From contig OZ020519.1 of assembly GCA_963971425.1 (NCBI GenBank), forward strand, positions 25,212,786-25,276,785: a DNA stretch of 64,000 bases, given 5' to 3'. Of the stretch, positions 3,018 through 47,853 are shown one piece after another; position 1 is the stretch's first letter; each line of letters begins with the position of its first letter. This stretch comes from Bryoerythrophyllum caledonicum. Lineage: Eukaryota; Streptophyta; Bryopsida; Pottiales; Pottiaceae. Under the pieces are notes generated by a model, which searched no databases, was not told the DNA's origin, and worked only from the letters and a program-made list of their open reading frames with translations. A program made the translations under genes and the position numbers.

Positions 3018-3968
3018 TTAACCCCGAAATTACTTAGACAATTTCACACCAAAAACACTTCAAAACTGCTTGTTTCAGTGCAATGAGTAAGGAGGAAAAC
3101 GATAACTTTTATTTATAGTTTAAACCGTAGGATCTCAATTCAGTCTTATTAAGTAACATACTCACAAAATTTTATAAACTTTGACCGCACGGATTGAAAG
3201 ATTATAGTGTTTGAAGTAGAGAAAAGGATTCATTTTCTTCCTTGCGTTTAGTGGATCAGCAGACTTTGACTTCACTTGGCGTCCAACTTTTGCACTATAC
3301 AAGGTCTAAATTTACTATCATCATGTTAAGCATGATATAAGTTCCTTGCACACCAATTCTTAGAGGTAAAAAAAGGGTGTAGCATATTCAAAAAAATTGT
3401 GCAAGGAGTGGATGTTCACAAATTGTAAATTCACGTTCTATATTTTTGTGAACTTTATATGATTTAGAATGAGAATCCAAATGATCAATAAGAAGGTTTA
3501 CACCACATAATGTTGTGAAGAAAACAAAAAGTAAAAAATATGAAGATCTCTAAGTTTTATGTGGAAAGAAAGAATTTTTTTGGGTACATTACCCAACAAT
3601 GTGCGACAATGTGTGAAAATGTTTGACTTGGATTAATATGCTATTTTTCACAAAAAAAAAGATTTTTTTTAACAAAATGAAAGGAAATAACATCATCCGC
3701 TAGTATTGAAAATCTCACATTCAATTGAGTGTCCTAGCAAAAGTTTTTGGAGTAGCCCAACTTGCCCCATCTCCCCATCTGAACTTCAAAACCCTATAAC
3801 TTTTTCATTAAATGTCGGGTTTAGGAAAATATTGGACTTTCACAAAGGTTTTAGTGATATCCATCTATGGTATAAATTTCAAAAAAGAATGTTATAAATT
3901 GACACAGTAAGAACTTGCCAAAACCTTCGAGAGTCCCTCGAGGGGACTCTTGGTAATTTAGAAGTTAA
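3018..3968 (-). mobile_element. TTAA element of the 950-bp family
   Basis: Begins TTAACCCCGAAATTACTTAG and ends GACTCTTGGTAATTTAGAAG-TTAA. The interior carries the family hallmarks in minus orientation: ACACCAAAAACACTTC near the left end, CACGGATTGAAAGATTATAG, a CTGCGTTTAGTGGATCAGCA block, and TGTGTGAAAATGTTTGACTTGG. The TIRs have diverged. It has no long frame, so it is non-autonomous. A CTCGAGGGGAC-type small palindrome lies near 3930. Confidence 0.65.
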
Positions 3969-5439: not shown

Positions 5440-6295
5440 TGGATGATAATCAACGTAAACAACTATTTTTCATCCAATTTTTTTTAGGAGAGTTCCTTGT
5501 ATGTAAAGTACTCTCACACAAGTATACGAACTTTTTGCTTTTGTACGTTTCCACACTACACTGTTGCCAACTTTGGCACCACCCTGAGGGCTCAAAATTT
5601 GTCAATTTACCATGAATTTTTTGGCACAAGATCACTTCTATGTTGAAAACATGTGTGCCAAGTTTCAAGGCCAGAAGATTTATACAGAAAAAGATGTCCA
5701 AGATTTACCAACATGGGGTAGCTGTAAGAAAAGTTTCACAGCTGCCAACTTTGACACCCTTCCAAGGATTGAAAGAATTTTTTTTGCCCATGTAATTTTT
5801 AGCATGAGAAGACCTCTATGTTGATTATATGTGTGAAAAATTTCAAGTCCAAAAGATCCACACAATTTAAACTACATCAAAAGCTAGCAACATGTGTAGT
5901 TGTGAGAAACATTTCACTCCTAGCCGACTTTGAAACACTCCCAAGGATTGGATTTTTTGGTATTTTTCCATGAAATTTTTGTCATGAGACTATCTCTATG
6001 TTGATCACATGCATGCCAAATTTGAAGGCCAAAATATCTACTTATTAAAAGAGTTTTGAAATCTACCAACATGTATAGTTGTGAGAAACATTTCGCTGCT
6101 GCCAACTTTGACACCCTCCTAAGGATTCTATTTTTTAAATTTTTTCCATGATATTTTGGACATAAGACCATATCTATGTTGGTCATACATGTGCTTAATT
6201 TCAAGTCCAAAAGACCTACAAAAGAAAAGAAACAAATTCAAATCTACCAAGATGTGTAGTTGTGAGAAACAATCAGCAAAACCATTCCACTATTA
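5440..6295. repeat. Left part of a foldback with about 178-bp direct units
   Basis: Four related units spaced about 175-181 bp each start near GCCAACTTTGACACC (about 5567, 5746, 5921, 6098) and carry CATGAATTTTTTGGCAC and TGTAGTTGTGAGAAAC. The segment 5440-5820 occurs in reverse complement at 20326-20660, on the far side of the 13.8-kb element. So the pre-insertion locus was an inverted-repeat (foldback) sequence of about 1.4 kb. The 60-70 codon frames on both strands are repeat artefacts. Confidence 0.7.
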
Positions 6296-6893
6296 AACAC
6301 GCAATTAAGCAATTATGCACTTAGCCAAGTGCACTGGTTGCTGGTAGAAAGCCGCAAGTTATTTGCTCATAACTTTTTTTTAAATAAAAATTTGGCAAAA
6401 GTTTAGTATGTTTTTTGTCAATTTTTTTGGGTGTTTGTCGTGTCATACATTGGCATCTTCATGTTCATATCAAAAATATATTTTTTACATTCGCTACCTT
6501 TTTTTAGAAAATATATGATTTCTAATCTAGTTTGCAAATCCTGCTACAAAATTATGATCTTGTGCCCAAAGAGATTATAAATGTCTTATGAGTTATTATA
6601 GGAATTTAGAGTACTGCAGTACAAATACAATGTGTAAGAGATACAAAAATATATTTGCAATTTCCTAAGACAGTGTAAAGTACCTCACTGTATTTTATAA
6701 TGCAAAAACATACATAATCAAGCAATTCCACACTATTGCTGAGGAATTCTAAAATCAAACATATCATATGGACCACCCAATATATAAATATATACCACCC
6801 ACTGAACGATAGACACATCTCAAACTGCATTATACTAATGTACTTGTCACCTAAACTGCGTGCATGCTCTACTATAGTATATAGCTCTAGGCC

Positions 6894-9314
6894 TCAGAGC
6901 TCATCTTCTGGCGGAACGACTCCCTCCACGTGTCCAATGGCGCTACCTACCATAGCGGACAGTTCATGATCCTGCACAGGACGATCTCCCACATCTTCGA
7001 TGCCAATGGACGCACACTCAACATATCGGTAATTGCTAGGAACACCCTCCCGCGTATGCCTTACCCTATCACCATTGTAGAAAAAGCCATCCTCTCGATT
7101 GAAGGACATCTCTCGCTCTAACGAGAAGGCCCCCTGAAATGCAATGATGTCCTCGGATACGCTAGATCTTGGAACGGAAGGCAAACCTGGTCCGGTATCA
7201 CTCTGAGTACCTTCCAACCTCACTTGTGTCTCCGATACTGGCTCTGATTGAGAAGGCATCGAAGGCTGTGGAATCCTCCTCTGCACCGAATTTTTTTTCA
7301 ATGAATCCAATTCTTCTTCCTCCATCTCCAGCCTACGACCATCAAATGTACGCCCCCCTCCTGCCCCTGCGGCCAAACCAACATCCACTACACCGGTATC
7401 TTGCATCCTCTCTCTAGGTGTTGCAGACGTCCTTCCTGAAGTATCTCCCACCGCCCGCTGCGTTGATGGAATCCTCTCTCTTGGAGGAGACTGGTTCACT
7501 CCATCTTCATCGGCGTCTGAACCACTACGAGATGAGAAATCTTCAGTGGTACCTGAACGTGGCAATCTCTCATGTAAACCACCTCCATCCTCATTGTCGT
7601 CTTCATTCCACACTCCACCAACCACCTCTTCGGTCTCAGGTACGACGTTGCAACCAGTACTTGGTCCACCAGTCCTGACCAACAGTTGTCCTTGGAAATT
7701 GTCGGACAACTCATTGTACAGAAATGAAACTCTGTCTGTACAATCGTCAATGATGAAAACCTCAGATCCCTGGAAATCTCCTTCAAGGATCGTGGGAATG
7801 GCCGTGTATATGTTATACGCCACTAAACCCCAACCACGGGGCAAGTATGAGCCCACTAGTCTTGCCAGCTCTGATGGAGATCTCTGAAGTGAATCAACTT
7901 CAGAGGGTTGGCGTGCCTCACTCCAGTGATCCAAGAAAAGAAGCGGAAGTGGAACGTCTCCAGAAACATAGTTCGGGCCAGGAGATGTACCGACAGGGTG
8001 CTGCATACAAATCACAACATCGCCAATCGGTTGTACTACTTGCTCCAGACGCCCATTCTCTGTAAAATCGAGAGCATAGGGATTAACCGAGTTTGGATCA
8101 AATGCCCAACATCCACGTCGCATGGTACATCCCTCTGGAAGCTTCACCTTCGTGAAAAAGTCTTCGTTGGCATACACGGCCGCTGGTAACAAGAAGACGA
8201 CGTTCCATTGTTCAATATTTGCCATCCATAATGTCAGTTGTGCAAAAGCTGCGGATAATTGGGCGTCTCCCCAATGACCATCTCCATGCCTCCCACCGCC
8301 ACGTCGACAATCAATCACCCACAAACATGGTTTTCCCAACTCTATGTAGTCGGTGCGGAATAACCCTCTTCTACACCGAATCGGAAGAAGATTCTCTGTG
8401 TCGCTCTGGCCTGGCCTCTTGACTTCTATCTGCCATTCCCAATTAGCAGTAGCATGTCCTCCCACATCCACGGACAGTCCAATGTATCCATGCCCCCCTG
8501 CTGCAATGTCACCATAATGAAACCTAATGGAAAGAGGGATGAGGTAGCCTATGTCTTCCAACTTAGACACCTTCCCCCGCATAGGAGCAGTCCAAGCTTT
8601 TTTCGTGGCAGCATTCAAAAGCTTCCCGAAAGTATCAAGTTGTGCATTACTCCTCGGAAAATACTTCCCTACACGAATACGGAAGAACTCCTCCATGGAA
8701 TCAAGTGTACTTTCCTTGTTCTCCACCATCAACCAACGGATGGAATTGATCACAGCTTCTCGTCTCTGATATCGGTCACAAACACCGGCAATCGTACGAG
8801 GATGTGGATTCTTGTCTTTTACACCGTCGAAGTAGTATGCTTGACGAGGTCTTACTCCATCCTCCGTCATCGGCTTCGCTGCAGCAGACTTTGCCAACCG
8901 AAGATAATATGGAATCGGAACCCTACCTAACGGCCTCAACCAATTCTGGGTCATCTCCTTTCTTGTTGGTCGTACGTCCACATTTGGATCCAGCTCTTTC
9001 TTCCTCGCCATGTCCTTCCACTTGTCCTCTTCCTCCTTGCTATAAAAGAGAATGCCATCTTCGTAGTCCTTGCATACTTGAATGATAGCTTCGAAGCAGT
9101 CATTGCTCGGATTCCATGCATGATTGGTCAGATCCTCCATGTTTTTGGCCAACCTCTTCACCGTGACAACTCCATCCCCCTTGGACAACTTATGCACTGC
9201 ACTTGCCGCACTCACCAAAGCAATAGCCCTACGTGCATCGTCCGCACGTAGTGTGCTATCAGGCCTCCCGTATAGATCCCAAATCTGACGGATCTTCCTC
9301 AAATCCTCTTCCAT
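6894..9314 (-). CDS. Element protein A, 806 aa, unknown function
   Basis: A single uninterrupted frame of 806 codons, the longest in the window, starting MEEDLRKIRQIWDLYGRP. The first 270 residues are mixed and charged. Residues about 285-520 look like a compact domain with several hydrophobic strand-like segments (CLWVIDCRRGG, WNVVFLLPAAVY, DVVICMQHP, LPLLFLDHW, WGLVAYNIY, EVFIIDD). Residues about 560-730 are acidic and Ser/Arg-rich, probably disordered. The tail has a conserved piece (FNREDGFFYNGDRVRHTR) also found in the 5.6-kb relative at 43640-43760. I do not recognise a family; the strand pattern could suggest a Rossmann-like fold, which is only a guess. Its start codon overlaps the end of frame B by 16 nt. 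The intact frame contrasts with the broken plus-strand gene. Confidence 0.7.
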   Translation of the reverse strand: MEEDLRKIRQIWDLYGRPDSTLRADDARRAIALVSAASAVHKLSKGDGVVTVKRLAKNMEDLTNHAWNPSNDCFEAIIQVCKDYEDGILFYSKEEEDKWKDMARKKELDPNVDVRPTRKEMTQNWLRPLGRVPIPYYLRLAKSAAAKPMTEDGVRPRQAYYFDGVKDKNPHPRTIAGVCDRYQRREAVINSIRWLMVENKESTLDSMEEFFRIRVGKYFPRSNAQLDTFGKLLNAATKKAWTAPMRGKVSKLEDIGYLIPLSIRFHYGDIAAGGHGYIGLSVDVGGHATANWEWQIEVKRPGQSDTENLLPIRCRRGLFRTDYIELGKPCLWVIDCRRGGGRHGDGHWGDAQLSAAFAQLTLWMANIEQWNVVFLLPAAVYANEDFFTKVKLPEGCTMRRGCWAFDPNSVNPYALDFTENGRLEQVVQPIGDVVICMQHPVGTSPGPNYVSGDVPLPLLFLDHWSEARQPSEVDSLQRSPSELARLVGSYLPRGWGLVAYNIYTAIPTILEGDFQGSEVFIIDDCTDRVSFLYNELSDNFQGQLLVRTGGPSTGCNVVPETEEVVGGVWNEDDNEDGGGLHERLPRSGTTEDFSSRSGSDADEDGVNQSPPRERIPSTQRAVGDTSGRTSATPRERMQDTGVVDVGLAAGAGGGRTFDGRRLEMEEEELDSLKKNSVQRRIPQPSMPSQSEPVSETQVRLEGTQSDTGPGLPSVPRSSVSEDIIAFQGAFSLEREMSFNREDGFFYNGDRVRHTREGVPSNYRYVECASIGIEDVGDRPVQDHELSAMVGSAIGHVEGVVPPEDEL

Positions 9315-10309
9315 GGTAGAATATGAATGTTCTGGAACTCCGCCACGTTGATCCGCGTAGACTTCTCAATGTAAAAGCGACGATCATCATACACCACAAA
9401 AGAGGCCTCCCACCGCTCAAACGTGTCCAGATACTCGTTCAAAGGCATAGTACCATCTCTCCACTGCTGTTGTGCAAACTTACAAGCTGCTACTATGTGT
9501 TGCCCATCCACCGGTTCCCAAATGATATGATCTTGAAGCCAAGAATACTGTGATCCCAAAGCACCCTCTGCAGAAGCACTCCCGTGTGCAAAGAACATGC
9601 GTTCAAACTCTCGTGCGGTACCTACCAACGGAAATGGCAGCTCTTCCTTCTCAACGACACCATCATCGGTGGTAGTATGCACGATGTATCTGATCGGTCG
9701 AAGTACCAATCTACTCACCCGAGTCGCGGATTCTGGGTCTCGTAAGCAGTTGAATACTTCCATGACCCTCTTCTGTGATAAAACCCGGTGGTTGGTTTCC
9801 GGATTCTCCACAGAGACAATGCGGTCTATGTGTGCCTTAAACACAAAATTCCCCCACACTGATCCTTTCGCAATCTCCTCTGTTACAGGCACTGGTGCTT
9901 TTAAATTCATTGGAGTTGGAAGATTCTGTGGTATCTCCGCATTGTCTTCAAAATCCTCTGGTATACTATCTGGAAGGTTGTGAAAATCTTCTTCCTCCGG
10001 CGCCAAGGCTGACAAATCAGCTAAATCTCCCGGTGTAGATGTAGGGGCCCTACGATGACCATCAGACGTCCTGAGCCCTGACCTAGGAATCCTGCCACCC
10101 GATCTTGCACTTCTCCCAATCAACCTCCTCCCACTTGGATCCAAACTTGATGGGCCTTCTCTTGAACCAGAAGCTACATCACTGTCAACACGCCGTGGCC
10201 TCTTCGTAGGACGTCTACTTGTTAATGGAGGATTCAGTAATGTCTGTACCTCAGAAGTTGTGGTGGGATGTTGGCCTCCACTTCCTCTCCCCCCTCCAGT
10301 GGTCGCCAA
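9299..10309 (-). CDS. Element protein B, 336 aa, unknown function
   Basis: The open frame starts MATTGGGRGSGGQHPTTTSE and its first 130 residues are low-complexity with a basic patch (RRPTKRPRRVDSD) that resembles a nuclear localisation signal. The rest (about 150-336) is more ordinary, including NFVFKAHIDRIVSVE, RVMEVFNCLRDPESA and WEPVDGQHIVAACKFAQQQW. It overlaps frame C by 76 nt upstream and frame A by 16 nt downstream, each in the -1 register. In the 5.6-kb relative, sequence matching the C/B junction lies in one continuous frame (about 44240-44447), so B may be the continuation of C rather than a separate protein. No family was recognised. Confidence 0.6.
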   Translation of the reverse strand: MATTGGGRGSGGQHPTTTSEVQTLLNPPLTSRRPTKRPRRVDSDVASGSREGPSSLDPSGRRLIGRSARSGGRIPRSGLRTSDGHRRAPTSTPGDLADLSALAPEEEDFHNLPDSIPEDFEDNAEIPQNLPTPMNLKAPVPVTEEIAKGSVWGNFVFKAHIDRIVSVENPETNHRVLSQKRVMEVFNCLRDPESATRVSRLVLRPIRYIVHTTTDDGVVEKEELPFPLVGTAREFERMFFAHGSASAEGALGSQYSWLQDHIIWEPVDGQHIVAACKFAQQQWRDGTMPLNEYLDTFERWEASFVVYDDRRFYIEKSTRINVAEFQNIHILPWKRI

Positions 10310-10857
10310 TCCAGTTGCAACGGCTCAGCAAGAATTCGATAAACTTCTGTTTCTTCTGGTTCTGCTGGCGGAGCTTGAGTTGTCGCACGTGATGGGTCTC
10401 TCTCCCGAAATGCTTCATATCTAATATGTTCCTCTATAATCTTCTTAGCCTTCAGCACCATCTCCGGTGATAACGCTAAACAGGCTAAGACATTGTTGTG
10501 TCTAGCAGTACGTACCACAAGAGAGATGTTCAACCAAAACGTCTGCAAGGATTTGAGGAATTTCACCTGACCTGGATTTTGAAGAAGATTCAAAGGGACA
10601 GGTGCCAAAAGCAACTTCTTCGAAAGAGAAGTCTTCACCTCCGATTGACCTGGACCCACTGCGCATGTAACGTATACCATATCATCACGTCGAAGAGTGA
10701 TTGCTTGGATTTTGCCAAAACTCTTTCCCAACGCCGATTTACGCTTCCCCAGCTCAAAGGGATAATCTGTCACCCATAAGAAGGCGCTCGTCTCATCCAC
10801 TTCCGCGATCCACCAACCGTGGCTCTCCCAGATTCTATCAATATTTGGTGGTGCCAT
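10234..10857 (-). CDS. Element protein C, about 207 aa, unknown function
   Basis: I place the start at the Met of MAPPNIDRIWESHGWW (10857). The frame stays open 27 codons upstream, but that part is read from a nested TTAA-element repeat. Visible segments are WWIAEVDETSAFLWVTDYPF, KIQAITLRRDDMVYVTCAVG and LSKKLLLAPVPLNLLQNPGQ, then a helical stretch (MVLKAKKIIEEHIRYEAFRE) and an acidic, Pro-rich end containing EPLQLDWRPLEGG. The equivalent of that last block in the 5.6-kb relative reads RPIQVDWRPP. C is the first frame of the C-B-A run and would be transcribed from the divergent intergenic region. No family was recognised. Confidence 0.6.
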   Translation of the reverse strand: MAPPNIDRIWESHGWWIAEVDETSAFLWVTDYPFELGKRKSALGKSFGKIQAITLRRDDMVYVTCAVGPGQSEVKTSLSKKLLLAPVPLNLLQNPGQVKFLKSLQTFWLNISLVVRTARHNNVLACLALSPEMVLKAKKIIEEHIRYEAFRERDPSRATTQAPPAEPEETEVYRILAEPLQLDWRPLEGGEEVEANIPPQLLRYRHY

Positions 10858-10915
10858 AACGCAACACTCAAAAAACCTGTATATCATTACAAAACGATAG
10901 TCACTATTAGTATGG

Positions 10916-12010
10916 AATAAGAATTTTTGAACCACCACTCATTGCACAATATTTTTGAACATGCAACACCCCTTGTCTACCTCTAAAAACTTTTGCACTA
11001 CACAAGATCTAAATCCAATACCATCGTGTTAAGCATGTTGTTAGTTCTTATAGGAAAAATAGCATATTAATCCAAATCAATTATTTTCACACATTGTCAT
11101 ACATTTTCGAGGAGAGTACCAAAAAACTTCTACCGTTCCACATAAAACTTTGAGAGCTTCGTATGATCCACTTTTAATTTTTCCTACCACATTATTTGAT
11201 GTAAACCTTTGTATTGACCATTTGGATTCTCATTTCGAACGATATCAAATTCACCTAAAAACATAACGTGAATTGAGAATTTTTGAACCACCACTCATTG
11301 CACACTTAAAAAAAACATGCTACACCCCTTGTCTACCTCTAAAAACTTTTGCACTACACGAGATGTAAATCCAATACCATCGTGTTAAGCATGTTGTTAG
11401 TTCTTTGGTGAAAAAGCATATTAATCCAAGTCAATTATTTTCACACATTGTCACACATTTTCGAGGAGAGTACCAAAAAACTTCTACCTTTCCACATAAA
11501 ACTTTGAGATCTTTGTATGATTCACTTTTGATTATTTCTACGGCATTATGTGATGTAAAGCTTCGTATTGACCATTTGGATTCTCATTTCAAACGATATT
11601 AAGTTCACAAAAAAACATAACGTGAATTGTGAATTTTTGAACCCTCACTCATTGCACAATTTTTTTGAATATGCTACACCCCTTTTCTAACTCTAAACAT
11701 CGGTATATAGAAAATTAACATCATGCTTAACATTATGGTAATTAATTGAGACCTTTTATAGTGCAAAAATGTGACACCAATTGAAATAAAAGACTGCTGA
11801 TCCAAAAAACGCAGGGAAGAAAATGAGCATTTTCACTACTTCAAACATTATAATCTTTCAATCCGTGCGGTGAAACTTTATGACATTTTGTGAGCATATT
11901 ACTTAATAAGTCATCATTGAGATCCTACGGTTAAAACTAAAAAAAAAACATTAATTCTAGAGGCTTTCTAATTTCACAAAAACAAGCAATTTTAACGATA
12001 TTTGGGTTAG
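10916..12010 (+). mobile_element. Degraded TTAA element with internal tandem duplication
   Basis: Shows family hallmarks: TGCACAATATTTTTGAACATG, AACGCAGGGAAGAAAATGA, AATCTTTCAATCCGTGCGG. A unit of about 355 bp beginning GAATTTTTGAACCACCACTC occurs at about 10919 and 11276, with a third start near 11630, giving about two full tandem units. The left terminus is missing and the right terminus has decayed near 12005. It lies directly upstream of frame C and supplies its immediate 5' flank. Confidence 0.65.
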
Positions 12011-12200
12011 ATATTCTCTACATTATTTATGGACCAAGGTACTTGGGGTATCAATATCTAGGGTATGACGACCAGGGTATGAGCTCCTTGGTACCACACG
12101 CGGTTATCAACCGGTGTATCAAATTAGGGTTTGGATTAGGGTTTCGATTTCTGGGTATCAATAAGGATATCAATCCTTTGCTCAAGTGGGTAGTCCTAGG

Positions 12201-12224
12201 AGGGGTGTGCGCGCGCACACCCCT
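12201..12224. repeat. Perfect 24-bp GC-rich palindrome
   Basis: The halves are AGGGGTGTGCGC and GCGCACACCCCT, centred at 12212/12213. A degenerate relative (GGGGTGTCCGCGCGCACA) lies at about 12867-12884, so the two bracket the purine-rich and GC-rich insert between them. It could be a terminal structure of that insert or a DNA cruciform/protein site. Confidence 0.7.
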
Positions 12225-12866
12225 GGTAGAAGTTGTGATGAGGCTGTGAGTGAGAGGGTAGGGTTAGGAGGAGGGAGACAATGTGTGGGAGGTGTGAGGA
12301 GATGTGTGGGAGAGATGGGTTTATGTGGGCGGGGAAGGTGTGAGGGAGGGGAGGAAGTTGTGGGAGGTGTGAGGGAAGTTGTGGGCGGCAAGGGTTTAGG
12401 AGAGAGAAGGAGAGAGTGGGTGAGGAAAATTGTGTGTGGGTGAGTGGGGGAAAGAGAGAGGAAAAAAAAAACATGGCATGCCTGGGCCACGGCAGCGCCA
12501 CGCCTGCCCGCGCAAGGCAGCGCCTGCGCGGCAGGGCTGGCAGCGCCTGTGGGCAGGGCTGGCAGCTCCTGCGCGGCAGGGCCTGTGCCGTGTAGGGCCC
12601 GCGCACGGCAGCGGTGTTGCGAGCAGGGCTCGTGCATGGCTGTGCGTGCGCCGGGCCAGCGCTTACGGCAGCGCCTTTGAGCACATGGTTTAGAGTGTGT
12701 GAGGGTAGGATAGGAGGCCGCGGCAATGAAATGGGAAGGAGGCGTCGCACCTGCGAAGCCGCGCAACGAGGAGGTTGACTGCCACACTTGATCGCGGAGG
12801 AAGCTATTGATTTGATTTTTGCTTCGATGTGTTTGGATTAGCTTGGTGGAGGAGCACCAGCAGTAG
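12225..12866 (+). repeat. G-rich then GC-rich low-complexity insert
   Basis: 12225-12470 is GTG/GAGG-rich on the plus strand. 12480-12680 is very GC-rich with imperfect repeats of GGCAGCGCCTGCGCGGCAGG. Composition differs sharply from the AT-rich surroundings. Long frames on both strands (up to 233 codons) result from the lack of AT-rich stops and the Pro/Thr/Ser repeats, and I do not call them genes. Origin unknown. Confidence 0.5.
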
Positions 12867-12954
12867 GGGGTGTCCGCGCGCACAGCTCTAGCTCAAGGTT
12901 ACTTTGGGAGGCGTCACGCGATTTCCACGTCACGCGAATATGTTGACTAGGGTT

Positions 12955-13095
12955 TGGATTCGTGGTTGTGGCGGCTAGGGTTTGATGGCGGCGGCTAGGT
13001 TTTGGCGGCGATGGCTAGGGTTTGGTGGTGGTGGCTAGGGTTTGGTGACGGCGGCTAGGGTTTTGGAACTAGGGTTTAGGTTCTTCTGTGTAGAG
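12955..13095 (+). repeat. Telomere-like GGCTAGGGTTTGG repeats
   Basis: About seven occurrences of CTAGGGTTT in roughly 140 bp, many inside a longer unit GGCGGCTAGGGTTTGGTG with a GGT/GGC-rich spacer. It resembles plant telomere units (TTTAGGG) but the spacing is irregular. AGGGTTT motifs (telo-box) are also common upstream of plant ribosomal and translation genes, so this may be promoter sequence for the element's plus-strand gene. Confidence 0.55.
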
Positions 13096-13926
13096 GCTAG
13101 GGTTTCAAGTAGTGCGCTGATGTGCCATATTGAGGATTTTGTGCAATACTACGAGCTGCTCTTTTGACTCAGTTTATGAGGTTTTGGTGTCATTTTTTCA
13201 CTATAACAACGCTTGCACTCTCTAGTTGTTGACTGCTATCATGTTTTCTTGTTGAAATTGCAAGTTTGTACATACTCCAGTTGGTGTTCTCATTTATGAA
13301 TTCAAACATTGGTACTCACCTAACACTAACGTAATTCTGTCTGAACTTCAATCATCATGAACATAACCCTTGAGTTCCTCACTTTCAGAATTGAAACAAA
13401 GTTAGAAGCTTACCAAGTTCGCAAAAATCTCCTCGATGTGCAAATTTCCTCCAATCAACACAGTATACAAATTTGACAAAAATTAGTGAATGAAGTAAAA
13501 ATGCACATAGCCTTGAGGTTTTGATTGCAAGAGTGCCCACCTTAGAAACTGCGAAGAGAAATGACCTCTAGGTTTGCATAGAAACCTTTTATCCATGTTG
13601 GAACCTTGTGCCTCAAGTTTACTAGTAAAAATTTGACTTTAAGAACTTTGGACCGTTTGCTTTGTTTCTCCATATGTTAATTTTTTCAATATATTATACT
13701 AAAATTTCGGGCTATATGTAATACGAAGATACATATAGGATTTTTTATCACATAGTTTACCATATAAACTTTATGCATGTGTTGCAGGTAAAGGGGGAAG
13801 GGTTGAGAAACATGTCGAACAACAACGACGGAATGGTGATATAATGTTGAACGCCATCAAGCATCAGTGCGTGTACCGCTAACACCTGCAACGTATCTTG
13901 AGGTAAACATTTATTTTTATACAAGT

Positions 13927-14878
13927 TTAACCCCTAAGGTACCAAGTGTCCAAAACGGGCTTTTTGAAAGTTTGGTCAGGTTCCTATGGTGTCAATTTCC
14001 AACATTCTTCTTTGAAGTTTTTATAATAAAAAGACATTACCAAGACCTTAGTGGGAAAACAATTTGTACCTAAATTGGACATTTGATGAAAAAGTTATAG
14101 GGTTTTGAATTTTAATGGGGAGGGCGGGCACCTCCGGCACCTCCAAAAACTTTTGATAGGACACTCTATTGAAAGTGAGATTTTCATTACTTGCAAGTAA
14201 TATTATTTCCCTTCATATTGTCCAAAAAAAATTCTTGTCTTTAGTGAAAAATAGCATACCAACCCAAGTCAAACATTTTCACACATTGTCACTCATTGTC
14301 GGGCAAGGTACCAAAAAAACTTCTTGTTTTCCAAATAAAACCTAGATATTTTCATATTTTTCACTTTTTATTTTTTCCACATCAATATGTAATGTAAACC
14401 TTCATATTAACCATTCAGATTGTCAATCAAAAACATAATAAGTCAAAAAGAAATTAAACTGTGAATTAACAAATTTCAAGCCTCCACTCCTTGCACACTT
14501 TTTTTGAATATGCTACACCTGGTTTCTACCTCTAAAAAATAAAATGTAAGGAGCTCACATCATGCTTAACAAGATGGTAATAGATTTAGACCTTTTGTAG
14601 TGAAATTTTTTGACACTAACTGAAGTCAACATCTATTGATCCACTAAACGCAGGGAAGAAAATGAACCATTTAGTTGACTTCAAACACTATAATTTTTTA
14701 ATCCGTGGGGACAAAGTTTTTGAAATTTTGTACATGTATTACTTAATAAGCCTTTATTGAGATCCTACGGTCAGAACTAAAAATCAAAGTTTTTGTTTCC
14801 TTCTTTATTCGTTGCACTAGAATCCATTTAGTTTGAAGTGTTTTTGGTGTAAAACTGTTACGATACCTTAGGGGTTAA
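13927..14878 (+). mobile_element. TTAA element of the 950-bp family, well preserved
   Basis: TTAA at 13927-13930 and 14875-14878 bracket CCCCTAAGGTACCAAGTGTC and CGATACCTTAGGGG. The interior has no long frame. The flanks (TACAAGT | GATTGATT) occur joined by a single TTAA at 47069-47072 in the 5.6-kb relative, so that site is the unoccupied target. This fixes the boundaries and shows a TTAA duplication, as piggyBac-type elements make. No transposase in the window could move it. Confidence 0.85.
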
Positions 14879-15168
14879 GATTGATTCTTGATTGATCTTT
14901 TGTACTATGTTGTTTGTAGAATAACCTTTATGTGGACGTACAAATCCATTATTTAATTAGCGATTGTAACAAGTTCCAATGGTGTCAATAATAGCAAGTA
15001 GAGAACATGGTTCATTTTCTTCCCTAGGTTCAGTGAATTCCCTTCGTTTCAGTTCACTTGGATTCAAAAGATTGCATCACACATGATCTAGGTTCATAAT
15101 CATCATGTGAAGATTGATTGGTTCCATTATTCACCAATGTTTAGGAATGCAAAAGAGGTGTAGCATAT

Positions 15169-16116
15169 TTAACCCCTAATGGATCAAGTGTCAAAAATTG
15201 GCTTGTTGAATGTTTGGTCAGGTTTCTATGGTGTCAATGTCCAATATTCCTCTTTGTAAATTTTACTATAGAAAGGCATTACCAAAACCTTAGTGGGAAA
15301 ATAATTTTTACGTAAATTGGACATTTGATCAAAAAGTTATAGGGTTATAAATTTAAAATGGAGAGAGCAAACAAGTTGGGCACCTCCAAAAACTTTTGCT
15401 AGGACACTCTGTTGATTGTGAGATTTTTTGTACTCAAAAGTAAAATGATTTCCCTTGATGTTGCCAAAATAAGTTCTTGTCTTTATTGAAAAATAGCATA
15501 CCAACCCAAATCAAACATTTTCACACATTGTCAGTCAGTGATGGGCAAGGTACCAAAAAAACTTCTTGATTTCCAAATAAAACCTAGATATCTTTTTATT
15601 TTTCACTTTTTTTTTCCAGTACAATATGTGGTGTAAACCTTCTTATTGACCATTTCAATTACCAATCTAAAACATATTAAGTTCACAAAAAATTACAGTG
15701 TGAATCAACAAATTCCGAACTTTGACTCTTTGCACAGTTGTTTTGAATATGCTACACCTTTTTTCTCCCTCTAAAAATTGGTGTACAAGGAACTAACATC
15801 ATGCTGAACAAGATGGTTAAGGATTTAGACCTTCTGTAAAAAAAAAATTGACACGAAGTGAAGTCAAAGTCTGCTGATCCACTACACGCAGGGAAGTAAA
15901 TGAACCATAAGATTCACTTCAAACAGTATAATCTTTCAATCCGTGCGGCCAAAGTTTCCGAATGTTTTTTTAATTATTAATTAATAAGTCGTAATTGAGA
16001 AACTACGGTCAAAACTAGAAATAAAAGTTTTTGTTTCATTTTTTGTTCGTTGCACTGGAATCCAACAATTTAGAAGTGTTTTTGGTGTAACACTATCATT
16101 GTACCTTCAGGGTTAA
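15169..16116 (+). mobile_element. TTAA element of the 950-bp family
   Basis: TTAA at 15169-15172 and 16113-16116 bracket CCCCTAATGGATCAAGTGTC and TTGTACCTTCAGGG. The same insertion is present, truncated, at 47369 in the 5.6-kb relative, so it predates the split of the two large elements, whereas the 13927 copy came later. Its flanks (AGGTGTAGCATAT and CCGTGCAAGGAGTTCATG) are themselves an older, diverged member of the same family. Confidence 0.8.
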
Positions 16117-16334
16117 AGATTCCGTGCAAGGAGTTCATGTTCTAAAAATTCTTAATTTTCTCATTTCAAAGCAGTTTTATCAAAAGGTACAATATCATCA
16201 TCATATTTTGAACAGTAAATATGTGTTTAGAAACATACCTTTTATCAGATGAATGGTGCTTTGAAGGTTAACAATTAGTAAATGTATTTTGACTAATGTG
16301 CAGCCATAATGTTCCTATTTTTTCAATAGTGATA

Positions 16335-19300
16335 ATGGAGAGCCGCACGATTCAGACTCCTTTGATACGGCCACACATCGAAACGGACAATATGCCTTCT
16401 AATAGCTCTGTGGGGGCCCGATTAGTATGAGCAGCACGTGCAAGGCAAATTCAACAGAGATCTGTTGGGATCATGACTTCTGAATTGGAAAGGGTAGTAG
16501 AATTGCTTTCAGAAAGAGGAGATGTGGTGGGCTTAGCAACGAGGGAGCATGCATTCAAAAGTGGCATGGAATTCAATGGGTCGAAGTTGTTCCCATTCGA
16601 GGTGGCGGTGCGTATCAATAGGGTAGATGATGCATTGCATTGGACCGGAGAGATTGTAGGAGAACGCCTTGGCATGTGTGTGGGCTTGATCATTCGTTGG
16701 CATCGATCTTTGCTACGTGTAGTGGCTACAGAACCTGATATCACAGGTGTCCATGGTGACATTGGATCACAGATAGCGCCTGCAGAAGTGATGGCGTCAG
16801 AATTTGATTTTCCTGAGTTCATCAACACACCAAGATCCACCCAGAGGTCTCGACGCAGTGGTCATGCTTCAAACGCCATAGATGAAAATTCGTCGTCTTC
16901 CCAATCTACTCCCTCAAATATCCAAGATTTGCCCCATGTAGATGGATTTGCTTATGTTGGACCAGCACGTCGTCCATATTCTATGCAAAATAGCAGAAGG
17001 AGAGATTCAAGGGAGCCATCATTGACAGAAGCTGCACCATCTAAGGTATTGCTTAGAAGCGTGCAAATTGCAATGGCACAAGGAGGATGCAAACGTAATT
17101 GTTTGAGGGACGTTCCACCAAGGTATCTATTGGACATGCGATATAATGCATGGGGTAGTGAGTTTTCAGTTCGAAGTACGTGGATGAAACAGATGCTGGT
17201 TTCTTTTTACACAAGGTCGGAAGGAACTCGTCGAGACAAGTTTGTAACAAAGTTAGATGGGAAAGAAGTTTGCAATGCTTGCTACGCTCTTGGGGTTGGA
17301 TATTCACAGAGGCGCTTTAAGCAATTGAAGAAGGACTGTCTAATATATGGAAGAGTGACATCGATTCACAGCAATACCCTTTCAGATCCAATAAGAGAGA
17401 GTACTAGAATGTCTGCAGCAGAGGCTTGCTTTAAATCGTTTGTCGATGAAGCTGGTTGTCCTCAACCTCATCGTTGTATTCGCCGTAAGAGTGACAACGA
17501 AGTGGTGCCTCTCATTCTTCTTCCTATGAATACATCCAAATTTGATGTATTCAATTACGTGAACGAGGAGGTCAAGAGAATTTGTAATGGAGAAACCAAT
17601 TCTATGAGTTCGTTCCGGAGGATGTGGCACATCAAGTATCCCCACGTTCAGGTACCTCCATTCTCGAGATTCTCAAAGTGTTATCATTGTTGAGAGTATA
17701 AATGTGCCATGGAGGGAACCACCAATGCGGATGCAAGGATAAAGATAAAGGAGTTGTTTATGTTGCATCTGCGCAATCAGATGGAAGAACGTAGGCATTA
17801 TTGGATATTCAAGAGGTCGTGTTATATTAGCCCTGAGTTGTACATGTGCATCATAGTGGATGGCATGGACCAAAACACGACCATGGTACCGAGGATGCGG
17901 CAGACTGTGAAGAACATTGAACATCGGTTTGTGAAGACCCATCTATGTGGTGCTCTTGTACATGGGATTGGTTTATATTGCGACGTGTGGTTTGGGGCTC
18001 ACCACAAACACGATAGCAATCAAGTCGTGAGTACATTGTTGTACGTGATTGGAGATGTGCTGCGGAGGAGGGGTTTTTTGCCACCAATACTGCAAATTCA
18101 GGCCGACAACTGCACGCGTGAGAACAAAAACATTTATATGTTTGCTCTATGTGCTACATTGGTGGGATTGGGGTTTTTTCAGGAGGTGGAACTATCTTTT
18201 CTTATAGTAGGCCATACCCACGAAGATATTGATCAACGCTTCAGTTGTATATCAAATACGTTGAAGAGGTCGGACGTCGACTCGTTGAAGGAAATGATTA
18301 GTCTTATAGAACGAGGAACATCTCCTACAGAAGCATTTGTTAGCGCCCGGCTGCTAGAGAATGTATGGATTGGAAATTGTTCATAACTCCTCACTTATTG
18401 ACAGGTCAAGATTCATTGGTGGGCATAACATTTCCGCACCACATGCGATTCTATATGGACAATCGAGCAGCGACTCGTGACGTTCGAGTACAACACAAAC
18501 ATTATTGCAAGGATCTATGGGGACCGGAGGCAGGGACGAAAACTTTGAGGTCGTTGCCAAATAGGGATGAACGACCATCGTTTGCGGAAGTATTTGCAGC
18601 GGACGAACGAGAGTTGAAGGCGTTGGATGACTTCATTGCATATAAGCAAAGGTGCATTCAAAGGTTGCAGCATGAGGACAAGAATCGTGAGGCAAAAGTA
18701 GAGGCTGAAAGATTGAAACTCTATTTAGCTGAATTTCCACATAAAGATCGTAGCAATGAGCATCGTACCTCACCGTTTTGGCCTTCAGAGTTCTCCAACA
18801 CCGGACCTACAGGGAGCGCATCTTTGGATGTAATGGATGGTGCAAGTGAAGAAAATCGCGAGGTAAATGTCGAAGAGCAGGTAGTGGCCATGCTTCCAAA
18901 TGCCGAGGCTCGAGGATACTTTGGTCCTCGTAGAGGAAGACCCTCTAATCAAGCAGTGCGTAGGGCACAACAAACAGAGCGCAACTATGTTGAGGAACGC
19001 GCCGAAGAAGGAGCAATGTATGAAGATAATCATGACCCATTTCCACCATTTAATCCACAATCTGATATCCGTTGTGGATAGTTTGTAGCCTTGAGTGTTG
19101 ATCGAACAGAGATAGAAGGCGGTGTACCATTCTATGTCGGGAAAGTGATTGACGAAGGAAAAAACCGACGGAGACTTAAGATTAAGGTTTGTTGGTATTG
19201 GCCCATCATCCAAAGGGGGGTTGCTGATGGACATGGGTCTTCTGCACAACGGTATGCAAATTGCATGGATTCATTCTGGGAGCCATCTGGGGAGTGTCAT

Positions 19301-19525
19301 AGTTGGGTAGAGAAAGATGCATGCATTTTTTCATGGGTAGACACACCGGAAAGAACCATGTCCGGGGCCAGCGGGTGCAAAAAGCGCAATGTATTTGGAG
19401 TGCAGGTTGAAAGCAGGATTCGCATTCTTCAATCGGCAAAGGCCCACATCCTACAATATATTGCAATGCAAACCGAAGCTATCGATGACGACCGTTTGCA
19501 AGCAGCCCTAAATTCTGTGGAGTAG
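16335..19525 (+). pseudogene. DUF7869-like putative transposase gene, decayed
   Basis: A gene of about 1,060 codons in one dominant reading. A Met at 16335 (MESRTIQTPLIRPH) is in frame with the long stretch from 16473, interrupted by TGA at 16428. The frame runs to a TGA at 17691 and continues in the same frame to 18386. It shifts near 18365-18405 and is again broken by a TAG at 19079, where the copy at 40985 reads through. Motifs: an early CYHC pair, VDGMDQ (17856), LQIQADNCTRENKN (about 18094) and LIVGHTHEDIDQRFS (about 18200). From memory these are hallmarks of DUF7869-type proteins and look like the acidic residues of an RNase H fold. The tail (PFYVGKVIDEG, KVCWYWP, CIFSWV) resembles a small beta-barrel reader domain. 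It is probably the element's transposase relic; function is inferred. Confidence 0.65.
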
Positions 19526-20097
19526 ATAGTGTGCCTTTATGAGAGTATACTAGTTGTGTATATTAATAGATATATAGTGTATGTGTAAGAGTAGTATATT
19601 CTAAGGGTGATGTAAGACGTTATGTCATTAATCCTATAGAGTAAAGGTAATTTTACTATTGGTGCTAAGTCCATTTGTAGAAGAATCTATATTTAGTTTC
19701 CACCATTGTATGCATTATATACTACGTTGAATATCTTTTAATCAATTGCCAACCCTTGCATAAAGTATGTTTTTCTGTGATTACGCCTGTTTGTATACTA
19801 CAATCCTTCAAATCTATCTTTGAAATATTGTGAAACTATATTAAATAGACATTTATCTAATATTAACGAGGGGCCACCACAAATTAGTTGAAAATGCCAA
19901 AAAATTGCTTCCAATATTAACAACCATGATTGTACGTAATATTGTTGTAGAAGCTCAATTTTTTTTTTTGGAAATCTTTTTTTTTCTTTGATTTTTTTTT
20001 GCAATTTTGCAATTTTGCCACTTTTGTTCGCAATGGCCGCCACTGTACTCAAGTGCACTTTTATATGGCCAAGTGCATAATTGCTTAATTGCGTGTT
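19526..20097. promoter_or_regulatory. Right subterminal region of the 13.8-kb element
   Basis: The 570 bp after the plus-strand gene are conserved in three copies (here, 41430-41993 and 47985-48547), including GGTGATGTAAGACGTTATGT, a homopolymer stretch and TTGTTCGCAATGGCCGCC. AAGTGCA motifs occur near both element ends (AAGTGCACTT and CCAAGTGCATAA here, TGCACTTAGCCAAGTGCAC at the left), candidate transposase-binding repeats. The 3' end of the gene's transcript must also lie here. Confidence 0.5.
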
Positions 20098-20660
20098 TAT
20101 TGTCAACTTTGGCACCCTCCCTAGGTGAAAAAATTGTTAATTGACCATGAAGTTTTTGGCACAAGATCTTCTTCATGTTGATAACATGTGTGCCAAAATT
20201 CAAAGCCAGAAGATGAATACAAAAAACCATCTTCAAAATCTACAAGAATATGTAGCTACGAGAAACAATTTTGAATATCCTTTATTCTATTCATCATGTG
20301 GCCTTGGAATTTGGCACACTTATTATTAACATAGAGGTGGTCTCATGCTAAAAATTCCATGGGCAAAAAAAATTCTTTCAATCCTTGGGAGGGTGTCAAA
20401 GTTGGTTAGGTGTGAATGGCTCACAACTACATATCTTGGTAGATTTTGAATATCGTTTTTTGTATTCATCTTCTGGCCTTGAAATCTGGCACACATATTG
20501 TCAACATAAAGGTGATCTTGTGCCAAAAATTTCATGGTAATTTGACAATTTTTCAGCCCTCAAGAGGGAGCCAAAGTTGGCAACAGTGTACTGTGGAAAC
20601 GTACAAAATTAAAAAAGTACGTATACTTGTGTGAGGGTACTGTACAAGCATTAGATGATG
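20098..20660. repeat. Right part of the interrupted foldback
   Basis: 20098-20325 continues the direct unit found left of the element (TTTGGCACCCTCCCTAGG, TTGGCACAAGATC). 20326-20660 is the reverse complement of about 5440-5820, ending near GTATACTTGTGTGAGGGTAC. Together with 5440-6295 this reconstructs an inverted-repeat element into which the 13.8-kb element inserted. Confidence 0.7.
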
Positions 20661-21242: not shown

Positions 21243-22180
21243 TTAATTCTTACAGGACCAAGTGTCAAAAATGGGGTTTTTGAAAGTTCAGCCAGGTTCA
21301 TATGGTGTCAATTTCCAACATTCCACTTTGAAATTTTTAGTGTAGAAGGACATTACTAAGACCTCAGTGGGAGAACAATTTTTTCCTAAATCCGACATAT
21401 AATGAAAGTTATAGGCTTTTGAATTTCAAGTGGGGAAAGCGGGCATTTTGGGCACCTCCAAAAACTTTTGCTAGGATACTCTTTTGAATGTGAGATTTTC
21501 AATACTAGCAAGTAATATTTTTTTCCTTCATATTGTCAGAAAAAAGTTCTTGGCTCTAGTGGAAAATAACATATTAACCCAAGCCTAACATTTTCACACA
21601 TTGTTGGGCAAGGTACCAAAAAAACTTCTTCTTTTCCACATAAAACTTAGAGATCTTCATGTTTTTGACTTTTTTTTTTCCCACAACGATATGTAGTGTA
21701 AATCTTCTTATAAACCATTTGGATTATGAATCCAAAACATACTAATTTCACAAAAACTAAAAATGCAAATTGGCAATTTTTGAACCTCCACTCCTTGCAG
21801 AGTTGTTTTGAATATGCTACACCTCTCCTCTACCTCTAAAATTTGGTGTATGAGGAACTAACATCATGCTTAACACAATAGTAAAGGATTTACACCGTGT
21901 GTAGTACAAAAATTTGACACCAAGTGAAGTTAAAGTCTGTTGCTCCACTGAACGCAGGGAAGAAAATGAACCACTTGTTTGACTTTAGACGCTATAATCT
22001 TTCAATCCATGGGGTCAAACTTTATGAAATTTTGTGAGTATCTTACTGAATAAGTCGTACTTGAGATCCTACGGTCAAAACTAGAAATCAAAGTTTTTGT
22101 TTCCTTCTTTATTCATTGCACTAGAATCCAACTATTTTGAAGTGTTTTTGATGTGAACTGTCACGGTACCTTAGTGATGA
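21243..22180 (+). mobile_element. TTAA element of the 950-bp family, diverged
   Basis: Starts TTAATTCTTACAGGACCAAG and carries the usual order: GGTGTCAATTTCCAACATTC, GGGCACCTCCAAAAACTTTT, CATATTAACCCAAGCC, CGCAGGGAAGAAAATGAACC, CTTTCAATCCATGGGG. It fades near TCACGGTACCTTAGTGATG. The right TTAA is lost. Non-coding. Confidence 0.65.
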
Positions 22181-22316
22181 AGGGTGAATCAAGACAACTC
22201 CAGGAGCCGATTGGTGAACTTTGGATGCAGCTGAACGACCAACTGCCGAAGGGCAAAGAATGTATAGGGATCTTTGAACTGGGCATTGCCCACATGTACG
22301 TAGGCGCCCTGATGAG

Positions 22317-29934: not shown

Positions 29935-30878
29935 TTAACCCCTAAGGTACCAAGACAATTTTACACCAAAAACACTTCAAAATTAATGGATTCTAGTGCA
30001 ATGAATAACGAGGGTAACAAAAACTTTGATTTTTAGTTCAGACTGTAGGATCTCAATAAAGGCTTATTAAGTGATATACATGTACAAAATTTCATAAACT
30101 TTGACGGCACGGATTGAAAGATTACAGTGTTTGAAGTCAAGCAAATGGTTCATTTTCTTCCCTGCGTTTAGTGGATCAGCAGACTTTGACTTCAGTTGGT
30201 GTCAAAAAATTTCACTACACAAGGTCTAAATCTATTACCATCTTGTTGAGCATGATGTTAGCTCCTAACACACCAATTTTTAGAGGTAGAGACGGGGTGT
30301 AGCATATTCAAAACAAGTGTGCAAGGAGTGGAGGTTTAATTCACACATTAATTTTTTTTTAACTTAATATGTTTTCGATTGATAATCCGAATGGTTAATA
30401 AGAAGGTTTATATTACATATTGTTGTGGAAAAAATAAAAGTGAAAAATATAAAGATACCTAGGTTTTATGTGGAAAAGAAGAAGTTTTTTTGGTACCTTG
30501 CCCCACAATGAGTGACAATGTGTGAAAATGTTTGACTTGGATTGGTATGCTATTTTCCACTAAAGACAAAACTTTTTTTTGACAACATGAAGGGAAGTAA
30601 TACTACTTGCGAGTACTGAAAATCTCACTTTCAATAGAGTGTCCTATCAAAAGTTTTTGGAGGTGCCCGAGGTGCCCGCCCTCCCCATTTAAAATTCAAA
30701 ACCCTATAACTTTTTCATCAAATGTCCAATTTAGGAAAAAATTGTTTTCCCACTAAGATCTTGGTAATGTCTTTCAATAGTAAAAACTTCAAAGAAGAAT
30801 GTTGGAAATTGACACCATAGGAACTTGACCGAACTTTCAAAAAGCCCTTTTTTGGACACTTGGTCCTTTACGGGTTAA
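29935..30878 (-). mobile_element. TTAA element of the 950-bp family, in duplication copy A
   Basis: TTAA at 29935-29938 and 30875-30878 bracket CCCCTAAGGTACCAAG and CACTTGGTCCTTTACGGG. Copy B of the surrounding duplication has AATTCCT-CTAA-ATCATTCC at 35398-35401 instead, an unoccupied site with one substitution in the target. The insertion is therefore absent from copy B and likely postdates the duplication. Non-coding. Confidence 0.85.
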
Positions 30879-31390
30879 ATCATTCCTATCATCTGACCTT
30901 AAAACACATGCATGAACAGAGCTTCCAAAAACAGAGCATCGCATAAAAATCAGTGAAATATGACATAATGCAAAGAATTGTAATTCCAAATCATGCAGCA
31001 GAAACTATCCTTCTACTCCAAAACTCCACATCACAAATACAAGCTCCAGGGAACCAATGTCGGCACCTCAACAAAACTAGGGTAAGTCCGAATGGCTGCA
31101 ATGTGACCGAGAGGCTGCAAATTTCGCCATAGATCGGATAGTAAATTCAATGACATGCGAGAGATGGGAGCAAAACCAACACTGACTCACCGAGGAGGCG
31201 AAGAGCATGGAATGAACAGTGAGATAGAGGTCATTACAAAGTGTGCCCACCAGCAGATTAATGTGAAGAAATTATTCAGTTACTCGGATAGTTCAGTCAG
31301 ATAATTCAGTTACTCGGTAGCAATGCTGGAGTACAACTTTTACTCGGCCCTGACTAAACAATGAGTACTACTTTCGATTACTAATACAAC

Positions 31391-42940: not shown

Positions 42941-43489
42941 AACACGCAATTAAGCAATCATGCACTAGGCCAAGTGGCGCTCAATAACAACAAGATTTTG
43001 CGCGGAAATGTCTTTTGGAAGGAAAAAAAATCCGACAATCCCTATTTTTTCTTTGCTATATTTTTGTGACAATTTCATTGAATATTGGTTTCTCAATGTG
43101 TACATAAGTAAATCATTTTCACCATTTCGGTAAGATTATGCATAATATATGATTACGGTATTTCATTTTTATTCCATTGACAATATTACATTGACCATGT
43201 ACTTACAAGAAACTATCCATATACAATTTGTTGCATGAAATAAATTTTATATGAATTTAAATAAATTTTAGTGTCGTGCTACAAATACAATTTGTAGAAG
43301 ATGTAATGATAAAGCACGCAATACAATGATGAAGTGTGAGGTTTAGAACTCTATATTTTTCATATATATAAAACCATACATGATATAACTATTGAATACT
43401 ACAAAGATCATATACTACAATCAAACAAACCGTCTCTAAAGAAAATATACCAATCACACTGTACTAGTCATCTAAACATCATGTATGCT

Positions 43490-44447
43490 TAGCTACGGTA
43501 TGACCTCAGAGTCTTCATCATCCTATGGCGATATTACTCCCGTAGCGTGTTCCATGGCAATATTTACCATTTCAGCCAACTCCTCTTCTCGCACCGGACT
43601 ATCTCCAAGACTGACTGATGTAGACTGTTCATATCTCTAGCTTCCATGGTCGTCGTGCCGCGTGTGCCTTATACCATCTGCATCATAATAGAAGCCATCC
43701 CTAAATGTCAGCGGTGCAGTGAAGGTCTCCTGAAATTCAGCAACATCTTCTGGTTCGCTCTCTCTTGAAACAAATGGCAATATTGGTCTAGTGCCACCTC
43801 CAATACCTTCAGCGCTCCCATGTGTCGCAGATCCAAGCTCTGATGGAACAGGCCCCAAAGACTGTCCACCCCTACTCAATTCCGAAAAAAACATGAGAGA
43901 ATCGGTCGTACATTGCTCTGATTTTGACAGCTAAGAAATGGATATGTTTATCCCATCTGTTGGTGCCTCTGAAGGAACATCTAGTACCGTGGTATCATCA
44001 CCCGTTCCAACGGGTATCTCATGTACACAAACTCCCACATGTGGCTTGTCCAGCTATCGATTTACGGCCCCTGCCACGCGATGGCGATGTCCTGCCCCGC
44101 GACGTCGAAGCCGTGCGACGCAATGTCCAGGCCCTACTACGCGATGTCTTTGAGCGGCCACGCGATGTCTCTGAACGGCCACGCGATGTCTCCGAACGGC
44201 CACGGGACGGCCGTCCATCAGAATCTGGAGCTATGTTGCCCTCTTCACGTCGTGGCCGCTTAGATGGACGACCATTTGTTGGTGCACGAACACGGGATGG
44301 TGGCAGTTCAGTGGGCGGCCGCCAATCTACCTGTATCGGCCTTGCTAATGCGCGATAAATGGGCTTGGTCTCCTCTGGATACGTCGGTAGACCTGCACGC
44401 TCTGGCTCCGTCCGCCGTAATGCCTCATACATGGTATGAGCACTCAT
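43490..44447 (-). pseudogene. Fused remnants of element genes C/B and A
   Basis: 44019-44447 reads SAHTMYEALRRTEPERAGLP, then ARPIQVDWRPP and NGRPSKRPRREEG, matching the end of frame C and the basic region of frame B in a single frame. It then runs into an Arg/Ser repeat (GRSETSRGRSETSRGRS, coded by a repeated CACGCGATGTCT-type unit near 44155-44205). 43637-43894 matches the tail of frame A (FRDGFYYDADGIRHTR). About 2 kb of frames A and B are absent. GGATGAAA-rich sequence follows at 44470-44600. Confidence 0.65.
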
Positions 44448-44599
44448 AAATCTTCTAGCGCGTGAAAATCACAACGGATGAAATGCGTAAAAACAACGGA
44501 TGAGGAGGAAAAAATACAGCGGATGAAAAGACAAAAAATCAAAGAATGAAATGCCAATAAAGGGATGAAAAACATTGGATGAAAAAATGGGGATGAAAT

Positions 44600-47040: not shown

Positions 47041-47368
47041 TGAGGTAAACATTTATTTTTATACAAGTTTAAGATTGATTGTTGATTGATCTTCTGTATT
47101 ATGTTGTTTGTAGAATAACCTTTATGTGGATGTATAAACATTTTTTTTGAATTAGCAATTGTAACAAGATCCAATGGTGTCAGTAATAGCAAGTAGACAT
47201 CATGGTTCATTTTCTTCCCTAGGTTGAGTGGATTCCCTTCGTTTCAGTTCACATAGATTCAAAAGATTGCATCAGACATGATGTAGATTCATTATCATCA
47301 TGTTAGAAATGATATTACTTCTATTTTATACCAATGTTTAGGGATGCAAAAGAGGTGTAGCATATTTA

Positions 47369-47853
47369 ACCCCTACAGGATCAAGTGACAAAAATGGGCT
47401 TCTTGAAAGTTCAGTCAGGTTCTTATCGTGTCAATCTCTAACATTCCTCTTTGAAAATTTTACTATAGAAAGGCATTACCAAGACTTTTGTGGGAAAACA
47501 ATTTTTACCTAAATTGGACATTTAATCAAAAAGTTTTAGGATTTTGAATTTCAAATGGGGAGAGCAGGCAAGTCGGGCACGTCCAAAAAGTTTTGCTAGA
47601 ACACTATGTTGAATGTGAGATTTTCAGTACTCGCAAGTAATATTATTTTCCTTGATGTTGTCAAAATAAGTTCTTGTCTTTAGTGATAAATAACATATCA
47701 ACCTAAGTCAAACATTTTCACACATTGTCACTCATTGTTGGGCAAGGTACTAAAAAAACTTCTTGTTTTCCAAATAAAACCTAGATATCTTTTCATTTTT
47801 CACTTTTTATTTTTTCCACAACAATATGTGGTGTAAACCTTCTTATTGACCAT
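47369..47853 (+). mobile_element. Truncated TTAA element, shared insertion
   Basis: Begins TTAACCCCTACAGGATCAAG after AGGTGTAGCATAT, exactly as the copy at 15169. It is cut off at about 47853, where CTTATTGACCATTTGGA passes directly into the element gene sequence GTGCAGGTTGGAAGCAGG (equivalent to about 19400). Confidence 0.75.

Follow-up and report, generated by a model that had tools for sequence, protein, structure and literature searches.

The 64,000-bp stretch of the genome of the moss Bryoerythrophyllum caledonicum analysed here (contig OZ020519.1 of assembly GCA_963971425.1, positions 25,212,786 to 25,276,785; hereafter the window) contains an element with two divergently oriented genes, namely a plus-strand gene for a protein with a DUF7869 domain and a long minus-strand gene designated mg (Table 1). 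The element is a damaged representative of a terminal-inverted-repeat DNA transposon that is present in many copies. At its ends, 6296 and 20097, are terminal inverted repeats (TIRs) of 32 bp with one mismatch, as a sequence-only reading of the window had described, and the gene sets face away from a non-coding centre, again in agreement with that reading. The genome (437 Mb in 894 contigs) was searched on both strands for the 32-bp end with up to two mismatches, and 858 forward and 899 reverse ends (1,757 in total) were found, whereas the reversed pattern used as a control gave none on either strand, which rules out a chance origin of the ends. All 10 opposed-end pairs that were fetched are bounded copies of 12.5-13.6 kb, and both of their gene-bearing blocks are approximately 86-95% identical to those of the window copy in alignments. 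The sequence-only reading had proposed this search and had staked its case on further full-length copies; it stands on this point because such copies exist.

Another element, 5,608 bp long and bounded by the same ends, was found at positions 42941-48548 of the window, and its two ends account for the two other places where the right end had been seen to be conserved. Its similarity to the 13.8-kb element covers the rightmost 0.7 kb, with approximately 130 bp from the 3' end of the transposase gene, as well as parts of the centre; the rest of the two gene blocks had no match in it at the E-value used.

Exact 4-bp target site duplications were present at 13 of the 14 insertions examined with both ends, the window element being the sole imperfect case. 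In all 10 fetched copies, the borders carry exact 4-bp direct repeats of varied sequence, including CATC, ATTG, TATG, CATT, TTTC, TTAA and TGAT, among others. Further duplications are TGGT (the copy read in L045 and L046, which supply its minus-strand and plus-strand frames, respectively), ATAT (element 42941-48548) and AATA (the diverged C1 family described below). An empty site was sought for the copy in L031, whose insertion site lies within a dispersed repeat. When its flanks were joined with one CATT removed and searched in the fetched DNA, 40 single alignments crossed the junction; some of these loci overlap, and some of the alignments contain small gaps. Positions 1-294 of L005 contain a single CATT at an empty site of this type, and most other copies have CATC or CATA. 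These alignments indicate that the insertion in L031 made the 4-bp duplication. The dinucleotide shared by the flanks of the window element, which the sequence-only reading had reported, is thus better described as the remnant of a 4-bp duplication.

Both genes of the window copy are broken. The plus-strand gene contains three in-frame stops (16428-16430, 17691-17693 and 19079-19081) and, relative to L046, a frameshift near 18360; in L046, it is open over 1,066 codons. The minus-strand gene had been regarded as a cargo of three separate proteins, A, B and C. By comparison with other copies, these are consecutive frameshift-broken pieces of one gene, because an uninterrupted frame of 1,348 codons is found elsewhere: it was read directly as a single frame in L045 and is stop-free within the match in 16 of the 55 matches listed (1,647 first-look candidates). 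Similarly, approximately 65 of the 150 DUF7869 matches listed (3,606 first-look candidates) are open over 1,066-1,087 codons and stop-free within the match. Judged from these breaks in both genes, the window copy is non-autonomous and makes neither whole protein.

Table 1. Features of the transposon copy in the window (positions are those of the window unless a source coordinate is given)
Feature	Position	Strand	Basis
Window in the source	G000:C7:25212786-25276785		
Whole element, 13,802 bp	6296..20097	+	inverted ends; copy comparison
Left flank of target duplication, ATTA (readable as TATT plus one extra A)	6292..6295		border comparison
Right copy of target duplication, TATT	20098..20101		border comparison
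Left TIR, 32 bp, starts AACACG	6296..6327	+	end comparison, genome end search
Right TIR, single base different (G for A)	20066..20097	-	end comparison, genome end search
Second gene (mg)	6894..10857	-	broken into frames A, B and C; start codon set by comparison with L045
Frame A of second gene	6894..9365	-	open reading frame list
Frame B of second gene	9299..10324	-	open reading frame list
Frame C of second gene	10234..10938	-	open reading frame list
Centre between the divergent genes, with nested repeats	10939..16334		reading frames, repeat comparison
Nested insertion, 944 bp, ends CCCCTAAGGTA, TTAA duplication	13931..14874	+	comparison with other copies
Putative transposase gene (DUF7869)	16335..19525	+	three in-frame stops and a frameshift; start codon set by comparison with L046
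Pfam PF25273 (DUF7869) match	17925..18329	+	E=5.3e-46

The two genes travel together. In five places, a stop-free match of each gene was found in divergent orientation, approximately 10 kb apart, and the place on contig C14 was read with both ends. Among the matches listed, 55 of the 140 for the second gene have one of the 150 DUF7869 matches no more than 16 kb away, compared with approximately 1.1% expected at random, and 52 of these 55 neighbouring pairs are divergent and none are convergent. Nonsynonymous (dN) and synonymous (dS) divergence were 0.07 and 0.43, respectively, for the transposase gene (L046-L055) and 0.33 and 1.08 for the second gene (L045-L063). Because dN is below dS in one pair each, both genes look as if they have been kept for their proteins; the remaining 14 transposase pairs were saturated at synonymous sites and yielded no ratio.

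The same layout extends to diverged families. In the C1 family, the transposase shares approximately 37% identity with the main-family protein, and a second gene, present as two open pieces, lies upstream on the other strand; stretches of it share 32 and 21% identity with its main-family counterpart. A search with the first half of this gene gave 85 matches, representing further diverged relatives, and second genes across the DUF7869-linked families are 21-41% identical. The C1 ends were located by comparing copies, in which similarity runs from approximately position 1213 of L049 to approximately position 2709 of L050; the element measures 10,998 bp, its ends are AACACCGGTTTCGTTAAAA and its flanks carry a 4-bp duplication, AATA. 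The AACAC start and the duplication length are thus common to the main and C1 families across deep divergence. In the C9 family, an inverted-repeat search found no convincing ends, and the same search also missed the C1 ends. A 12-base word occurs five times upstream of the transposase in this family (L047/L048, C9:16367500-16383500) with a spacing of exactly 1,995 bp, which suggests that this stretch is a tandem array of approximately 2-kb units.

The hidden Markov model search recommended by the sequence-only reading confirmed the resemblance to DUF7869 proteins that it had seen in the plus-strand gene. The Pfam score was 157.1 bits for the window copy and 172.3 bits for L046, both above the gathering score of 26 bits, and all 14 aligned transposase proteins match PF25273 (best E=7.2e-57). 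No Pfam transposase family besides DUF7869 was matched by the proteins scanned. Residues invariant in the 14 proteins include D509, D512, D591, N592, H627, H629, D631 and D633 (L046 numbering), and E630 is kept in 13. The order of the conserved acidic residues would fit an RNase H-like D-D-(D/E) centre. AlphaFold placed strands at 503-509, 585-588 and 617-623, with low confidence in the candidate catalytic region, and two beta-rich stretches near the termini (approximately residues 53-130 and 915-1030) mostly with fair-to-good confidence. Relatives of the transposase were absent from phages (tblastn), and none were confirmed by pattern scans of viral contigs and prokaryote genomes. A possible resemblance of the N-terminus to plant CACTA-linked domains was unsupported by the Pfam scan, and weak Foldseek rows (Tudor, MazF, CAP-Gly, UHRF1 and others) were not significant (E values from 0.79 up).

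The protein encoded by the second gene gave no match judged real in Pfam, NCBIfam, PHROGs or PDB sequences, and no relatives of its conserved domain were confirmed in the prokaryote genomes or viral contigs scanned. An AlphaFold model of part of the protein, built from four sequences, had a mean predicted local distance difference test (pLDDT) score of 36 and was unusable. When seven relatives are aligned, the motifs TNxR, LRP and PxDGQH and a later N are invariant, in the order typical of ParB/Srx domains. DGQHR and DGQQR motifs have been described for the ParB/Srx fold (PMC4619093). In an hhalign comparison with six ParB domains, the partner profile scored 24.0 (E 0.014, probability 3%) over 36 columns in the expected place. 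None of 200 column shuffles reached this score (maximum 18.9) and the reversed profile scored 12.9, but the unrelated, longer profile of the transposase reached 19.2. None of the seven partner members has a Pfam match, and ParB is absent from the PDB matches of the partner. A ParB/Srx-like domain in the partner is treated here as a weak lead and not as a finding.

Taken together, the element is best explained as a cut-and-paste TIR DNA transposon with two divergent genes, a reading to which we assign a probability of approximately 85%. It is favoured because of the many bounded copies, the 4-bp duplication and empty site, the two long open frames in several copies, dN below dS in one pair for each gene, and the two-gene layout repeated in diverged families. 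The transposase would be the DUF7869 protein; D509, D591 and either D631 or E630 would form the D-D-(D/E) centre of its RNase H-type fold, and the enzyme would bind the 32-bp ends and join them to the target strands with a 4-bp stagger. The 1,348-codon partner may be a DNA-binding protein or an accessory factor in transposition and might contain a ParB/Srx-like module; its role would be comparable to that of the second protein that CACTA and Mutator elements encode.

Several observations weigh against this interpretation. The duplication of the window copy itself is imperfect (ATTA before the element, TATT after it), and AATA is a less clean case since the C1 flanks also share a nearby repeat of approximately 18 bp. 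Three of the 55 gene pairs lie on the same strand, and the pair counts rest on the matches listed, some of which are pieces of one gene and are therefore not independent. The AlphaFold model of the transposase is poor (mean pLDDT 55.6, with residues 508-598 below 50), and Foldseek of this model gave no match at E<=0.001; the proposed catalytic centre is accordingly an inference. One PDB sequence search of the transposase gave no match, and other PDB sequence rows were taken as chance (best, ribosomal L38e, E 0.024). The accessory role of the partner is likewise putative.

How the transposon, in which the sequence-only reading had recognised no named superfamily, should be classified is less clear. 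A placement in the Sola superfamily (Sola1, 2 or 3), with DUF7869 as the Pfam name for part of the Sola transposase and the second gene as a lineage-specific addition, is a serious candidate whose chances we put slightly below even. A possible resemblance to Sola motifs lies in the DN...KN and GHTxxDxD pattern. When viral contigs were scanned for a Sola-like motif, four stretches were found, all within frames of 44-85 residues and taken as chance. In the published description, Sola elements have a DDD transposase, 4-bp duplications, TIRs of 11-1124 bp and lengths mostly of 2-9 kb with some above 15 kb, and have been reported from the moss Physcomitrella (PMC10741241). The duplication length, the TIRs, the large size (11.0-13.8 kb here) and the occurrence in a moss agree with that account (PMC10741241), and the invariant acidic positions would be compatible with a DDD transposase. 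The likeness is one of published features, and a partner gene like the divergent one of 1,348 codons goes unmentioned in the part of that account consulted (PMC10741241).

It is about equally plausible that these elements constitute an unnamed superfamily, characterized by transposases of the DUF7869 type, ends that start with 5'-AACAC, duplications of 4 bp and a partner gene in divergent orientation. The restriction of Pfam transposase matches to DUF7869 among the proteins scanned speaks for it, as does a search of 5.39 million papers that found none naming DUF7869, PF25273 or IPR057191, presumably the InterPro accession of the domain. That literature negative is a weak one, however, since the Sola and Academ papers and Repbase lay outside the scope of the search, and DUF7869 may already stand under a Repbase name. 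A more specific proposal appears unlikely: DUF7869 would mark an undescribed eukaryotic superfamily with AACAC ends and a 4-bp duplication, whose transposition requires two proteins, one of them the partner with a ParB/Srx-type (DGQH) module.

Under a further alternative, the element would have captured the second gene from the host and would carry it as dispensable cargo. Its large size and lack of a family match are compatible with this, as are short copies without it, such as the one at 42941-48548. Against these stand its retention beside DUF7869 genes across families in which second genes share only 21-41% identity, its divergent position in 52 of the 55 pairs among the matches listed, and a dN well below dS in the single pair measured. 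Because it stays beside the transposase gene through deep divergence, the second gene looks like working machinery and not a passenger; it is probably not cargo, and we consider capture of a dispensable host gene very improbable. What survives of the sequence-only reading is thus the mobile element itself and its transposase-like DUF7869 gene, and what must be given up are the three cargo proteins, their cargo status and the 2-bp flank.

Other known systems were also compared. CACTA and Mutator MuDR elements encode a transposase and a second protein in one element and resemble the present element in this respect; AACAC ends, the 4-bp duplication and the absence of a matching Pfam transposase set it apart. 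The varied duplications (CATC, ATTG and the others listed above) rule out piggyBac, whose target is TTAA, and Mariner/Tc1, with its 2-bp TA duplication. Mutator duplications are 7-12 bp (PMC10741241). Ginger1 shares the 4-bp duplication (PMC10045372); integrase families are absent from the Pfam matches of the 14 proteins, and a Ginger or integrase-type assignment was rejected. The same source gives 9-10 bp for AcademH (PMC10045372), which is excluded by the 4-bp duplication here, a test that covers the AcademH lineage of Academ.

Copy lengths differ in part because the 944-bp nested insertion in the centre is present or absent. Its empty site aligns unbroken in seven of the 10 other full-length copies and in element 42941-48548; the site is filled in L035 and L037, and L031 also lacks the insertion, with approximately 50 bp missing beside the site. 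This insertion belongs to a dispersed repeat of approximately 950 bp with copies in the window at 3018-3968, 13931-14874, 15169-16121, 21255-22190, 29935-30880 and 62542-63494. With its CCCCTAAGGTA inverted ends and TTAA duplication, copy 13931-14874 resembles a piggyBac-type non-autonomous element. A 20-bp tandem repeat of GGCGGCTAGGGTTTGGTGGC (approximately 4.7 copies, with telomere-like TAGGGTTT words) occupies positions 12970-13063.

Some opposed end pairs in the genome are just 2-6 kb apart, and some short pairs have two right-type (G) ends (e.g. C1:12772680 and 12774872), which suggests short non-autonomous families. On the 65-Mb contig C1, 36 of the 45 exact-pattern ends (one base left free) lie in the first 12.8 Mb and nine in the remaining 52 Mb. 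Elsewhere in the window, frames resembling tyrosyl-tRNA synthetase and P450 were noticed by eye near 24-27 kb and 34 kb and would point to a host of plant type; no Rfam family reached its gathering score in window positions 6200-20200.

The Pfam entry for DUF7869 names no function, and the domain is now tied to mobile elements with defined ends, a target duplication and an empty site, in the company of a long protein without a family match. AACAC ends, a 4-bp duplication and two divergent genes provide a signature for transposable-element annotation, by which many hypothetical genes in such genomes could be recognised as transposon genes. The elements offer a candidate two-protein transposition system that is open to testing, and if the ParB/Srx-type proposal were true, a DNA-clamp or nuclease fold like that of bacterial partition systems would take part in eukaryotic transposition.

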